Of a stretch of DNA of 64,000 bases, positions 41,583 to 47,146 are shown piece by piece (within the stretch, counting starts at the first letter, position 1; each line of letters starts with the position of its first letter). The DNA comes from a virus. Under the pieces are notes generated by a model. It had not been told where the DNA came from. It saw only the letters and a list, made by a program, of their open reading frames with translations, and did not search any database. The position numbers and the translations under genes are program-made. The DNA is taken from the IMG/VR virus record IMGVR_UViG_3300044678_002717, positions 1 through 64,000 of that record, one strand, 5' to 3'.

Positions 41583-42266
41583 ATGAAAATTTTTGCAATC
41601 TCAGATACTCATGGAAGGCATGAGCAAGTTCAAATACCTGAAGGTACTGATATGCTTATTCATGCAGGTGATTTTTCAAATACAAAACTTCCTGCAATGA
41701 ACCATAATGAAGTTAATTTATTTTTAATTTGGTTAGAAAAACAACCTGTTAAATATAAAGTCATTATTGCAGGTAATCATGATACTTCTATTGAAAGTAG
41801 ATTCATTACTAAAAAAGATTTTAAAAATAGAGGTATTATTTATCTTGAACATGAATCAATTGAGATTGAAGGAATTAAAATATTTGGCTCTCCATATACT
41901 CCTGAATTTCATAATTGGGCATTTAACCGTACAAGGGCTAAACTTGGAAAAATTTGGGATTCAATACCTGATGATACTGACATCTTAATTACTCACGGAC
42001 CTCCTAAAAGTATTTTAGATTCTGTTGAAAGAGGTAGAAACAATCATGAACATGTAGGTTGTTCCGCTTTACTTAAAAAAGTATTAAAAGTAAAACCAAA
42101 ATACATGATATTTGGTCATATTCATGACAATGGTGATAATTTAAACAATGGTATGTTTAAATTTAATGAATATAGAACAATCTTTGCGAATGTATCTTGC
42201 GTTAGAGATGGTAATAACTTACCATTTGTACACAATGGATATAGTTTTGATTATCCTCCTGCTTGA
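41583..42266 (+). CDS. Calcineurin-like metallophosphoesterase
   Basis: 227 residues. ISDTHGRH (6-13), HAGDFS (27-32), AGNHDT (63-68), LITHGPP and MIFGHIHDNG supply the dimetal ligands. A single-domain enzyme of this type could act on nucleotides or other phosphodiesters; the substrate is not predictable. It is expressed from a TATATTTG promoter 4 nt upstream, so it is not in the late set. Its end overlaps the convergent gene by 16 nt. Confidence 0.78.
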   Translation: MKIFAISDTHGRHEQVQIPEGTDMLIHAGDFSNTKLPAMNHNEVNLFLIWLEKQPVKYKVIIAGNHDTSIESRFITKKDFKNRGIIYLEHESIEIEGIKIFGSPYTPEFHNWAFNRTRAKLGKIWDSIPDDTDILITHGPPKSILDSVERGRNNHEHVGCSALLKKVLKVKPKYMIFGHIHDNGDNLNNGMFKFNEYRTIFANVSCVRDGNNLPFVHNGYSFDYPPA

Positions 42267-42628
42267 GTTTGAATATTTCTAAAACCTAAAGCGACATTTC
42301 TACCAGCAGTAGCAGTATTATTTTCTTCAACACTTGTTTTACTTGTTATAAAATTTATTATAGCAGTTAAATCATTTGCAGTTTTAATATTTTTTAGTTT
42401 AGTAATTAAAGGTGTATTTCCATTAGGTCCATTAATAATAGTTATAACACTTTGAGCAGCAGGAGAAACTTTTGGTTGTTGAGTTTGTTGTTGCCCTGTT
42501 TGAGGTTGTTGTCCTGTTTCAGACTCAAATCCACTAGTACCAACAGGTGTACTTCTAATTGGTTGTTCCATTAACATTTTACGAACCATTGCCCTTAATT
42601 GAGATTCTGTAATTAAAACTTTTTTCAT
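42251..42628 (-). CDS. Nested internal-head-protein candidate (125 aa)
   Basis: ATG 42626-42628 lies in frame inside the longer gene and is preceded by its own AACTATTTACAATAAA box. It starts with the shared peptide (MKKVLITESQLRAMV ... MLME at 21). The mature region is Q/T/P-rich (GTSGFESETGQQPQTGQQQT), then a small domain (VITIINGPNGNTPLITKLKN). This shorter product is probably a genuine separate gene. Confidence 0.55.
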   Translation of the reverse strand: MKKVLITESQLRAMVRKMLMEQPIRSTPVGTSGFESETGQQPQTGQQQTQQPKVSPAAQSVITIINGPNGNTPLITKLKNIKTANDLTAIINFITSKTSVEENNTATAGRNVALGFRNIQTQAGG

Positions 42629-43267
42629 CTTTTTTTTATTGTAAATAGTTGCTTTATTAAAATGTTCACTAATATTTTTACTCATATTAAATTTTTTCAC
42701 TTTATTAAGTGAAGCTAATATTTCTTCTTTATATGGTAAAACTAAAACATTATATACAAAAGCAATACTACCAACTATTTTTAATAATAATGATATATAA
42801 TCCGCAATATCTGTAAAAGAACTTGAAATAGTATTAATCATTCCATCGGCAACTAATTTATTTAACCATTCTGTTAATTTTGGTGTATTAGAATATATAC
42901 TAAGTATAAAATTAAAAATACATGCAACTGCTGATAATTTTAAAAGATTTTTAATATTAGCACTATTATTTATTTTACTTATAAAATTATCAATAAATTT
43001 TCCAAAACCTATAGTTTGTAATGTTGCCTTAACAGTTTGTGAAATACGTTTAATATTCGCTATTAATAAATCTAAATATTTGGTTAATAAAAAATTATTC
43101 TCTGCTTTTAATAACATATTAAAAAAAGAAACCAATTCCTTAATATTAAATATTTTATCAAAAAAACTAATATTATCTTCCTCATTTAATTGATTTAATT
43201 CCAATCTTGATAATAATACATTGCTACTTTCAATAAATAATTTTCTATGTTGTAACTCAGTTAACAT
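42251..43267 (-). CDS. Composite protein with internal targeting-peptide gene
   Basis: 338 residues from ATG 43265-43267, preceded by TTACTATTTA. An upstream extension would cross the promoter and both strands of the tRNA-Leu region, so it is rejected. The first about 210 residues are helical with hydrophobic segments (LLKLSAVACIFNFILSIYSN; YISLLLKIVGSIAFVYNVLV). The frame continues without a stop through a second ACTATTTA promoter and into MKKVLITESQLRAMV. The full-length product would therefore carry the targeting peptide internally (about residue 214). Confidence 0.5.
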   Translation of the reverse strand: MLTELQHRKLFIESSNVLLSRLELNQLNEEDNISFFDKIFNIKELVSFFNMLLKAENNFLLTKYLDLLIANIKRISQTVKATLQTIGFGKFIDNFISKINNSANIKNLLKLSAVACIFNFILSIYSNTPKLTEWLNKLVADGMINTISSSFTDIADYISLLLKIVGSIAFVYNVLVLPYKEEILASLNKVKKFNMSKNISEHFNKATIYNKKKMKKVLITESQLRAMVRKMLMEQPIRSTPVGTSGFESETGQQPQTGQQQTQQPKVSPAAQSVITIINGPNGNTPLITKLKNIKTANDLTAIINFITSKTSVEENNTATAGRNVALGFRNIQTQAGG

Positions 43268-43304
43268 TTTTTTATTGTAAATAGTAAATTTTAAAAAAAA
43301 GTCA

Positions 43305-43312
43305 TATATTTG
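43305..43312 (+). promoter_or_regulatory. TATATTTG promoter of the tRNA pair
   Basis: TATATTTG lies 17 nt before tRNA-Leu. It is the same -7 element used by thyX and the thioredoxin gene. Confidence 0.6.
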
Positions 43313-43329
43313 AATTGTCAAAACAATAT

Positions 43330-43413
43330 GTCGGGATGTTGGAATTGGTAGACAAGATGGACTTAAAATCCATTGGCAGCAATGCCGTGAGGGTTCGATT
43401 CCCTCTCCTGATA
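43330..43413 (+). tRNA. tRNA-Leu (anticodon UAA)
   Basis: 7-bp acceptor stem (GTCGGGA with TCCTGAT, two G-U pairs), anticodon stem ATGGA/TCCAT with loop CTTAAAA (anticodon TAA at 43364-43366), a long class II variable arm (GGC...GCC), T-arm GAGGG/CCCTC with TTCGATT, and discriminator A. CCA is not encoded. It decodes UUA, the expected preferred leucine codon in this AT-rich genome. Confidence 0.9.
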
Positions 43414-43420
43414 CATAACT

Positions 43421-43435
43421 CATTGATTATCAATG
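43421..43435 (+). other. Hairpin between the two tRNAs
   Basis: CATTGA-TTA-TCAATG forms a perfect 6-bp hairpin in the tRNA spacer. It may guide processing of the dicistronic precursor. Confidence 0.35.
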
Positions 43436-43446
43436 ATTTAAGATAT

Positions 43447-43544
43447 GGCCTTGTAAGTAAATGGATATACTGATTGCCTTCTCATTCCATTCTGAGGAAT
43501 GGAGAGAGAAGCAATTCTTCTAGGTTCGATTCCTAGCGAGGCTA
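43447..43544 (+). tRNA. tRNA-Arg (anticodon UCU) with a 26-nt anticodon-loop insertion
   Basis: Acceptor GGCCTTG/CGAGGCT (43447-43453 with 43537-43543), D-stem AGTA/TACT with GG in the loop, anticodon stem ATTGC/GCAAT (43473-43477 with 43511-43515), variable TCTT, T-arm CTAGG/CCTAG with TTCGATT. Removing 43483-43508 leaves the loop CTTCTAA, the standard tRNA-Arg(UCU) loop. The insert lengthens the anticodon arm into a nearly continuous hairpin of about 19 bp, with one bulged base and one mismatch. CCA is not encoded. Whether the insert is spliced is unknown. Confidence 0.75.
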
Positions 43545-43566: not shown

Positions 43567-44064
43567 ATGAATTTATCAAAGAATCTTACACTTTTTGAAA
43601 TGACAAGAAGTGAAACAGCAAAAAGAAAAGGAGTTAGCAATGAACCAACTCCACAACACATTGAAAATATGAAAGTGTTGGCTGAAAAAATATTTGAACC
43701 AATTAGAAGACATTTTAATTCACCAATCTATATATCATCAGGATATAGAAGTGCTGCTTTAAATAAAATAATTCCCGGTGCATCCAAAACTTCTCAACAT
43801 TCTAAAGGAGAAGCGATGGACATTGATATGGATAATAGTGGTTCTAAAGTTACCAACAAAGAAATTTTTAATTGGATTAAAGATAATTTAGACTTTGACC
43901 AATTAATAGCTGAATTTAAACAAGGAAATGATTTAGGTTGGGTACATGTATCATATAATACAAATGGTACTCAAAGAGGACAAATACTAATTGCTTCTAA
44001 AGGAACATTTGGAACAAAGTATTCGCCATACACAAAAGAATTATTTCAAAAAATTTATGGATAA
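43567..44064 (+). CDS. Peptidase M15 (peptidoglycan endopeptidase, endolysin-type)
   Basis: 165 residues. YISSGYRSAALN (55-66), SQHSKGEAMDID with His78 and Asp85, and WVHVSY with His127 (125-130) give the M15 zinc triad. Such enzymes cleave peptidoglycan stem peptides and serve as endolysins. No signal peptide is visible, so a holin or spanins would be needed. A late box (ACTATTTA, 43544-43551) overlaps the last base of tRNA-Arg. A second M15 gene lies at 48.4-48.9 kb. Confidence 0.82.
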   Translation: MNLSKNLTLFEMTRSETAKRKGVSNEPTPQHIENMKVLAEKIFEPIRRHFNSPIYISSGYRSAALNKIIPGASKTSQHSKGEAMDIDMDNSGSKVTNKEIFNWIKDNLDFDQLIAEFKQGNDLGWVHVSYNTNGTQRGQILIASKGTFGTKYSPYTKELFQKIYG

Positions 44065-44695
44065 TATATGTTTCCTATATTGCTTGTTTGATAAAAAAGA
44101 TTGTAGAATAAGATATATTGGTGTATCCGTGCAACCTGAACAAAGATTTAAAAATCATCAATATGAAAGTAAAAATCCTTCTACAAGTAATTTGGGAAAA
44201 TCTAAATGGTTAAAAACTGTAAAAGAACTTTCTTACAAAATTTTATTTTCAGGAACTGAAAAAGAATGTTATCAGAAAGAAATTGAATTAATTTTTAAAT
44301 ATAAAAAGAAAAAAAATCTTGTAAATAGTACGGTTGGAGGTGATAAACCACCTAAATTAAATGAATTAGACCCAATACATTATAATAAGACAATTTCTAA
44401 AATTTCAGAAAAAGCAAAAAATAGAAAAGTTTCTGATATAACTAAACAAAAAATGTCTGAGACTCATAAAAAAATTCCTCCTATTTGGTTAGAATCAAAA
44501 GGTTGTAAAAACGGAAGAGCCTATTCTGTAAATCAATATGATTTAAATGGTAATTTTGTCAAAAAATGGGATTGTGCTAAAGATGCAATCAATGAATTAA
44601 AATTAAATAAAACCGCAATTACTGATTGTTTAAAAGGAAGACAAAAAACAGCAGGAGGTTTTATATGGAAAAAATATACCCCTTACAAAGCTTAA
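44057..44695 (+). CDS. GIY-YIG endonuclease with NUMOD repeats (free-standing homing type)
   Basis: 212 residues from ATG 44057, which overlaps the end of the M15 gene. A longer frame is open but would begin deep inside that gene. The GIY-YIG module reads LYCLFDKK...IRYIGVSVQPEQRFKNH with R30 and a catalytic Glu near residue 78 (YQKEIELIF). KQKMSETHKK is a NUMOD3-like helix, and YSVNQYDLNGNFVKKWDCAK through GGFIWKKY is a NUMOD1-like DNA-binding domain. It probably cuts unoccupied sites in related phages to spread itself. Confidence 0.78.
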   Translation: MDNICFLYCLFDKKDCRIRYIGVSVQPEQRFKNHQYESKNPSTSNLGKSKWLKTVKELSYKILFSGTEKECYQKEIELIFKYKKKKNLVNSTVGGDKPPKLNELDPIHYNKTISKISEKAKNRKVSDITKQKMSETHKKIPPIWLESKGCKNGRAYSVNQYDLNGNFVKKWDCAKDAINELKLNKTAITDCLKGRQKTAGGFIWKKYTPYKA

Positions 44696-46327: not shown

Positions 46328-47146
46328 ATGAAAGAAGCATACCAATATCATCAGACAGTAAACAAACTAAGAACATTTTTCCAAAAGAAAAACTTCATTG
46401 AAGTACCAACACAATCTTGCTTATCAATCTTAGCAGCTTGTGAAAACCCTCACTCAATAACACAATTTGAATATGTCAATCAAATTTGGCCTCTTCCACA
46501 GACAGGGCAAATGATTTTGGAGGAAAGATTATTAACTAACCCAACTTGGGAAGGTTGTTTTTGTGTGTCAACATCTTATAGACAAGAAAAAAATCCAATC
46601 AAAGGTAGACATGAACTTATCTTCCCAATGTTTGAATTTGAATCTAAAGGTACAATGAAAGATATGCTTCAATTAGAAGCTGAACTTTTAGAACATCTTG
46701 GATTTGATAAACCAATCGAAGTAAATTATGATGATGTTTGTCAAGAATATGGTGGTGTTGAAATTCTTGAAAACGAACATGAAACAAGAATGTGGGAAGA
46801 AAAAGGTCCTGTGGTATCTTTACAAAACTTTCCATTAAGAACTAATCCATTTTGGAATATGCAACATAATGATAACGGAATCTTTAATAAAGTTGATGTT
46901 ATCCTTTATGGTCAAGAAACAATCGGTTCTGCTGAAAGAAGTTCTGATGTAGAAAAAATGAGAGAAATGTTTTATACCATTGAAAATGGAGCATACTCAC
47001 AAAAATTATTTGAACTCTTTGGAAAAGAAAGGGTAGAAAAAGAATTGGAAGATTTCTTCTCTCATGATTTCTTTGAAAGATTTGGTGGAGGAATAGGTAT
47101 GACTAGAATGGCTAGAGCATTAAAACTAAATGGTTCTATCATTTAA
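46328..47146 (+). CDS. Class II aminoacyl-tRNA synthetase-like core (AsnRS/AS-A related)
   Basis: 272 residues. Motif 2: CVSTSYRQEKNPIKGRHELI with Arg84, then FPMFEFES. LYGQETIGSAERSSDVEKMR resembles the AspRS/AsnRS-like active site. Motif 3: GGGIGMTRMARAL (253-265), with Arg260 contacting ATP. The anticodon-binding OB domain of true AsnRS (about 430 residues) is missing. Relatives of this core include asparagine synthetase A-type and EpmA-type enzymes, so it may activate an amino acid without charging tRNA. An AACTAATTA box precedes the gene. Confidence 0.7.
   Translation: MKEAYQYHQTVNKLRTFFQKKNFIEVPTQSCLSILAACENPHSITQFEYVNQIWPLPQTGQMILEERLLTNPTWEGCFCVSTSYRQEKNPIKGRHELIFPMFEFESKGTMKDMLQLEAELLEHLGFDKPIEVNYDDVCQEYGGVEILENEHETRMWEEKGPVVSLQNFPLRTNPFWNMQHNDNGIFNKVDVILYGQETIGSAERSSDVEKMREMFYTIENGAYSQKLFELFGKERVEKELEDFFSHDFFERFGGGIGMTRMARALKLNGSII

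Follow-up and report, generated by a model that had tools for sequence, protein, structure and literature searches.

Apart from the unexplained cases of the Lak megaphages, bacteria and their phages are not known to have small tRNA introns spliced by proteins. In bacteria, the intervening sequences of 23S rRNA are hairpin inserts in a structured RNA that are excised by RNase III. As for the Lak megaphages, the main text of Devoto et al. (2019; PMC6784885) describes enigmatic, highly conserved tRNA introns and gives no mechanism there. In the BHB that defines archaeal introns, the splice sites lie in two 3-nt bulges on either side of a 4-bp helix (PMC4090602), and the T4 enzymes Rnl1 and Pnkp rejoin tRNAs that have been cut in the anticodon loop (PMC3400036).

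We describe here a tRNA-Arg(UCU) gene whose anticodon loop is interrupted by a 26-nt insert. It was found in the window, that is, the whole 64,000-nt stretch of viral DNA analysed, which is part of a 73,599-bp virus record (G000). We propose, with a probability of about 0.6, that the insert is a mini-intron excised from the tRNA, perhaps by a double-strand cut and a ligase. The initial annotation of this locus had correctly called such an insert unusual for bacteria and phages, and had left four options, a spliced tRNA, a working long-armed tRNA, a decoy for anticodon nucleases or a dead gene; the first turned out to be the best of them, and the last is unlikely in view of the conservation and compensatory changes described below.

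Results

A tRNA-Arg(UCU) gene interrupted between positions 36 and 37

A covariance-model scan (cmscan, RF00005) delimited a full-length tRNA exactly at positions 43447-43544 of the plus strand, with a score of 46.3 bits (gathering threshold 29); no arm was missing and the anticodon loop contained an insertion, which bore out the tRNA-Arg(UCU) with all arms that had been read from the letters. ARAGORN in its normal mode did not detect this gene, and when introns were allowed it found the 26-nt insert and mistyped the tRNA as Leu. The gene measures 98 nt, or 72 nt without the insert, and has insert-free homologues (L110, L112-L115, L212). According to the sequence and the RF00005 alignment, the 5' exon (43447-43482) comprises the acceptor 5' strand, the D arm and the 5' strand of the anticodon stem (ATTGC, 43473-43477), and ends with the loop nucleotides CUUCU, the anticodon UCU lying at 43480-43482. 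The 3' exon (43509-43544) starts with A37 and A38, followed by the 3' strand of the anticodon stem (GCAAT), a 4-nt variable loop, the T arm, the acceptor 3' strand and A73. The anticodon loop therefore reads CUUCU, 26 inserted nt, AA; the fold is complete, UCU occupies positions 34-36 and the D loop contains GGA with A20.

The insert, CATTCCATTCTGAGGAATGGAGAGAG, occupies positions 43483-43508 and lies between tRNA positions 36 and 37. It is missing in the homologues, identical in L130 and L119, and part of a helix that covaries across families (see below). Its borders were set by alignment to the insert-free homologues and are unambiguous, since no base can be slid across them; they coincide with the 26 nt after UCU proposed at first. 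An ordinary tRNA-Leu(UAA), identified by both ARAGORN and cmscan at 43330-43413 of the plus strand, adjoins the gene, and this Leu-Arg synteny is found in three related records (G002, G004 and G012).

Several other features surround the tRNAs. The predicted start of an ORF on the minus strand (42251-43423) overlaps tRNA-Leu on the opposite strand, and its true start is probably downstream of the predicted one. A GIY-YIG/NUMOD homing-endonuclease-like ORF (43991-44695) lies just downstream of the tRNA cluster and an M15 peptidase, and is a possible mover of the tRNA region. Finally, positions 46328-47146 encode a 272-aa protein with a class II (D, K, N) tRNA synthetase domain, of which the same family is present in G002.

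The insert is shared by diverged relatives

Looking at related phages, we found tRNA-Arg both with and without the insert, as the initial annotation had suggested checking. In IMGVR_3300011113_000664 (G002) the same tRNA is present, identical at 98/98 nt, within an identical block of 102 nt that ends just outside the tRNA and beyond which the flanks diverge. In IMGVR_3300045999_009520 (G004) the tRNA-Arg that follows tRNA-Leu in this slot has another body (identical at 49/75 exon positions) but contains, at the identical site, an insert identical to that of the window at 26/26 positions. The same slot of IMGVR_3300017761_005873 (G012) is occupied by an insert-free tRNA-Arg with the loop CUUCUAA. 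Degraded and unconserved copies, which had been named beforehand as evidence against the element, were thus not what the relatives contained. Because the terminase gene of the window has diverged from those of G002 and G004 at 16-20% of its 4-fold sites, 26 unchanged insert sites are unlikely by chance (0.003-0.012 per pair), and this conservation would be difficult to account for other than by selection or recent transfer. The insert and the anticodon stem seem to have been exchanged together between two tRNA-Arg lineages. An assembly artefact was ruled out, the insert being present in independent contigs.

The window phage has a T4-type Gp23 capsid protein and a T4-type terminase. Among cultured phages, the Flavobacterium phages vB_FspM_immuto come closest in the terminase (29.6% aa identity), and the host is therefore probably a member of the Bacteroidota. 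The 170-kb G002 encodes a protein with a poly(A)-polymerase head and RNA-binding domains, as in CCA-adding enzymes. Two observations concern the tRNA clusters of these relatives. Between tRNA-Arg and the next tRNA, G004 (L004:5215-5327) and G002 (L006:5419-5528) contain a 113-nt structured non-coding stretch, 96% identical between the two, absent from the window and from G012 and without a match in Rfam. The third tRNA of the G002 cluster (L128, G002:48184-48274) has an 18-nt anticodon-loop insert and a CUCAA start, and its arm folds no better than chance.

A class of inserts in phage tRNA-Arg(UCU)

We then searched IMG/VR for tRNA-Arg(UCU) genes having a TGC/GCA anticodon stem and an insertion of 12-42 bases, with a pattern that left the last bases of the insert unspecified. 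In complete tRNAs this pattern returned the window type and three further families, the first in a 222,006-bp record, the second in two records (221,116 and 233,234 bp) and the third in five metagenomic contigs, and the inserts of all four families end with AG. The records above 220 kb correspond to Aeromonas phages PX29, Ah1 and Aeh1. A second pattern, which required AGAAG, added L181, L183/L185/L187, L190 and L191. This brings the total to eight insert sequences of 25-30 nt without evident mutual similarity, all located at 36/37 of tRNA-Arg(UCU) and all ending with AG, a terminal dinucleotide that the second pattern imposed. In every tRNA body of the class the GGA with A20, the recognition base of ArgRS, has been kept.

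In GenBank the Aeh1 gene (AY266303.2, 114904-115008) is labelled tRNA-Glu and the PX29 gene (GU396103.1, 101162-101261) a two-piece tRNA-Lys; the insert-bearing tRNA-Arg of Ah1 and AsFcp_2 is left without annotation. Phage tRNA-Arg genes are thus overlooked or typed wrongly. Aeromonas phage phiAS5 has an insert-free homologue of the PX29 tRNA-Arg, and comparison of the two reveals an exact presence/absence of the insert. The Aeromonas phage genomes have 22-25 tRNAs each, and such an insert was seen only in Arg(UCU). These phages share a second long tRNA of about 118 nt, conserved in Ah1, PX29, Aeh1 and phiAS5 (L206, L207, L208 and L209), with roughly 45-50 nt and internal hairpins inserted around the anticodon loop. 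In phiAS5 (L209, G080:181304-181421) and Ah1 (L206, G084:85245-85361) this tRNA-like gene has two T arms, with two GGTTCGA loops.

Since nearly all the larger records contain a T4-type Gp23 gene (G000, G002, G081, G083, G084, G088, G091, G092 and G093), the class seems to be tied to the T4 superfamily; the insert-free relatives G012 and G080 have the gene too, and neither the 120-kb record G094 nor several short contigs showed it. Outside phages, the exact insert core was absent from bacterial chromosomes, the architecture pattern restricted to TGC/GCA stems gave five matches and no tRNA among 84,980 species, and no such tRNA was found with the two patterns in bacterial and archaeal genomes. 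Of the other U34 isoacceptors, Thr, Ala and Gly were covered; the same architecture was found neither among the matches listed for a Thr/Ala pattern nor among those examined for a Gly pattern. A tRNA-Thr(UGU) on the minus strand of L277 (at about base 919 of the reverse complement) has a 36-nt anticodon-loop insert with 3-nt bulges on opposite strands; its architecture differs from that of the Arg class, and its isoacceptor is the same as that of one reported Lak intron.

The insert is predicted to extend the anticodon arm and mask the anticodon

The arm of the window tRNA (43473-43515) folds with -20.7 kcal/mol (z -4.5 relative to dinucleotide shuffles), in agreement with the nearly continuous hairpin described at first, and the predicted register of the extended arm has a probability of 0.98-1.0; only 1/2000 composition shuffles of the insert were equally stable. 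The 5-bp stem is followed by a bulged C32, the pairs U33-A38 and U34-A37, C35 paired with the last G of the insert, U36 paired with A, and then the hairpin of the insert itself. The initial annotation had also drawn the tip as a 5-bp stem with a 7-nt loop displaying a second UCU, and had taken it for a nested, duplicated anticodon arm. This idea was not supported: folding favours a tip in which an 8-bp stem is closed by a UGAG tetraloop, without display of UCU, and the tips of most other insert families lack UCU.

All folded arms follow a common plan, with an anticodon stem of 5 bp (4 in Aeh1), a bulged C32, and the pairs U33-A38 and U34-A37. In every family the plan continues with C35 paired with the last insert base, a G, and U36 with the last but one, an A, before the insert's own hairpin. 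The exon junction has 8-9 bp below it and 8-11 bp above it in the predicted folds of every family, for a total helix of 18-20 bp, and the anticodon is paired with the insert in all of them. We aligned ten arms without gaps, the hairpin tips being trimmed. In this alignment 91.9% of the cells were paired (compare with 70% in shuffles), 11 of the 16 arm pairs were changed on both sides, and the covariation score of 0.59 (0.18 in shuffles) was reached by none of 500 shuffles. Sliding the partner by one column reduced pairing to 37-42%. Columns 11-17, which are pairs inside the insert, were constrained by neither search pattern. A chance hairpin was ruled out by the shuffles, the covariation and the recurrence. 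What the families conserve is that the original anticodon pairs with the last bases of the insert.

Two known types of intron were tried and rejected. An archaeal BHB intron does not fit an insert arm that is a continuous helix with a single bulged C32 and a 1x1 mismatch, and to our knowledge archaeal splicing machinery is not expected in a bacterial host. Group I introns require a U at the exon end and a G at the intron end, and the insert has both. That it is a group I remnant is nevertheless extremely unlikely: it is only 26 nt long (25-30 nt in the class), U36 is paired with A instead of forming the U-G wobble required in P1 at the 5' splice site, and Rfam gave no match to the group I catalytic core, either in the window (gathering threshold) or in L004-L006 (E up to 5). 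Moreover, phage group I introns have been reported only in protein genes (PMC3984707).

An anticodon loop broken by an insert, the typing of the Aeh1 gene as Glu and the three pseudo-tRNAs listed for Aeh1 (PMC1524935) could be taken to indicate a dead or decaying tRNA gene. Such a gene would hardly have intact arms or be 100% conserved across diverged genomes, and because of the compensatory changes a pseudogene is very unlikely.

The burial of the anticodon in a helix, common to all families, would also suit a long-armed tRNA that is never spliced and serves as a decoy, or as a nuclease-proof form, against host anticodon nucleases aimed at tRNA-Arg; indeed, phage tRNAs with altered anticodon loops are thought to resist host tRNases (PMC10264068). 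We consider this unlikely, since the tips have no anticodon-like sequence in common, close relatives have insert-free versions, and the body keeps all tRNA features, including A20, which an unspliced decoy would not need. In addition, the gene is the sole tRNA-Arg detected in the 73.6-kb record and AGA is the main Arg codon; as AGA and AGG make up 87% of the Arg codons of the window, there is a clear demand for tRNA-Arg(UCU) in the phage.

A small selfish hairpin settled in the anticodon loop of tRNA-Arg(UCU), either tolerated or, like the intervening sequences of 23S rRNA, cut out with the ends left unjoined, might explain why an identical insert occurs in two different tRNA bodies and why eight unrelated inserts share one site, and archaeal tRNA introns likewise move between tRNAs (PMC4090602). 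This explanation is quite unlikely: decoding is not to be expected from an anticodon loop with a nick, the scans of other isoacceptors did not show the architecture among the matches listed, and the conserved pairing of the anticodon is more than a mere hairpin would need.

Proposed excision of the insert

If the insert is a mini-intron, the precursor would be cut exactly at U36/i1 and G(i26)/A37 to give a 72-nt tRNA with the loop CUUCUAA, reading AGA and AGG. We think it likely that the insert is excised to give a working tRNA. Before processing, the anticodon would be locked in the helix (U33-A38, U34-A37, C35-G, U36-A), so that the precursor could not decode. A double-strand-specific endonuclease, most simply host RNase III, would cleave the 18-20 bp arm halfway along on both strands, the tRNA halves would be held together by the anticodon stem, and the nick would be sealed by an RNA ligase, of the T4 Rnl1 type where it is phage-encoded and otherwise from the host or of an unrecognised kind.

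The junctions, after U36 and before A37, are fixed by the insert-free homologues and staggered by 2 bp in a continuous helix; the predicted cuts would leave 2-nt 3' overhangs on the tRNA side (C35 U36) and on the hairpin side (A G). RNase III products have 5'-P and 3'-OH ends with 2-nt 3' overhangs (PMC3386247), and this enzyme is suggested by the junction stagger, which matches the geometry of its products in all families, although the stagger follows from the helix being continuous at this site and is thus no independent clue, suggesting the enzyme without proving it. With 5'-P and 3'-OH ends, direct joining by a 5'-3' RNA ligase would be feasible. RNase III would have a rather short substrate in a helix of about 19 bp, except if the D stem stacked underneath, and the bulged C32 and the mismatches next to the cut could hinder the enzyme. 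The RNase III and ligase route is thus put forward tentatively. At less than even odds, T4-type phages may possess a tRNA splicing system new to bacteria, in which an anticodon-masking hairpin intron of 25-30 nt is released by double-strand cleavage leaving 2-nt overhangs (RNase III or an equivalent) and the tRNA is sealed by a tRNA-loop RNA ligase.

The search for an RNA ligase or endonuclease elsewhere in the genomes, also proposed initially, succeeded in part. A T4 Rnl1-type ligase was found in three of the five lineages with large records, and three lineages with the insert (the Aeromonas phages, G090-G092 and G093) show matches to both Rnl1 and AAA_33 (Pnkp-type kinase). On the other hand, no Rnl1, Rnl2-type ligase, RtcB or AAA_33 kinase was recognisable in the window clade (G000, the 170-kb G002, G004 and G012) or in G094, Pfam scans of 103 G002 proteins gave no RNA ligase among the families listed, and RNase III was found in none of the phage records searched. 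In the window clade a host or unrecognised ligase would thus be needed, and this missing ligase is the weakest point of the splicing proposal. Ligase and insert do not track each other, since the insert-free phiAS5 has the same ligases.

The same co-occurrence would be expected if a dedicated phage or host endonuclease removed the insert, leaving 2',3'-cyclic phosphate and 5'-OH ends for healing and sealing by Pnkp and Rnl1, as after PrrC. Pnkp and Rnl1 genes are, however, common in T4-type phages anyway, no candidate nuclease was found, and the window clade records have neither a Pnkp-type kinase nor Rnl1. We regard this alternative as doubtful; it is nonetheless a serious rival as to the enzymes, the Pnkp/Rnl1 pathway being established for anticodon-loop breaks (PMC3400036).

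Discussion

The class described here has a consensus architecture and members in cultured phages (Aeh1, PX29 and Ah1), which makes splicing, the enzymes and anticodon masking directly testable. If the proposed splicing system is real, phage RNA ligases would serve in tRNA splicing as well as in repair. In the open-access literature we found nothing on the Aeromonas cases or on an Arg(UCU) class.

The T4 Pnkp/Rnl1 repair that follows PrrC also seals a broken anticodon loop, but it repairs host damage and removes no insert (PMC3400036). The group I introns of bacterial tRNA genes interrupt tRNA genes and have the same exon U and intron G ends; they are hundreds of nt long with a ribozyme core (PMC3984707), whereas the inserts of our class are hairpins of 25-30 nt. 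The intervening sequences of 23S rRNA share the hairpin and, for the predicted cuts, the RNase III geometry, but are located in rRNA and are not re-ligated. Archaeal and eukaryal tRNA introns, which a splicing endonuclease cuts (PMC4090602), resemble the Arg class more closely, being short, located in the anticodon loop 3' of the anticodon, able to extend the arm and mobile between tRNAs; they sit, however, at 37/38, in contrast to the 36/37 position established for the Arg class by alignment to L110, L113 and L114.

The Lak introns remain to be considered. In both cases a small insert in a phage tRNA is conserved in relatives, typically identical across cohorts, and present in some relatives and absent from others. 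According to the main text, the Lak introns are found in tRNA-Thr(TGT), Tyr(GTA) and others, and one insert is tRNA-like, whereas here the target is Arg(UCU) of T4-type phages. That text, with which we compare by description only, describes neither a common architecture nor a pairing of the anticodon. What the class adds to the known phage tRNA introns is an architecture that can be defined, one target tRNA so far, a phage lineage and cultured representatives.
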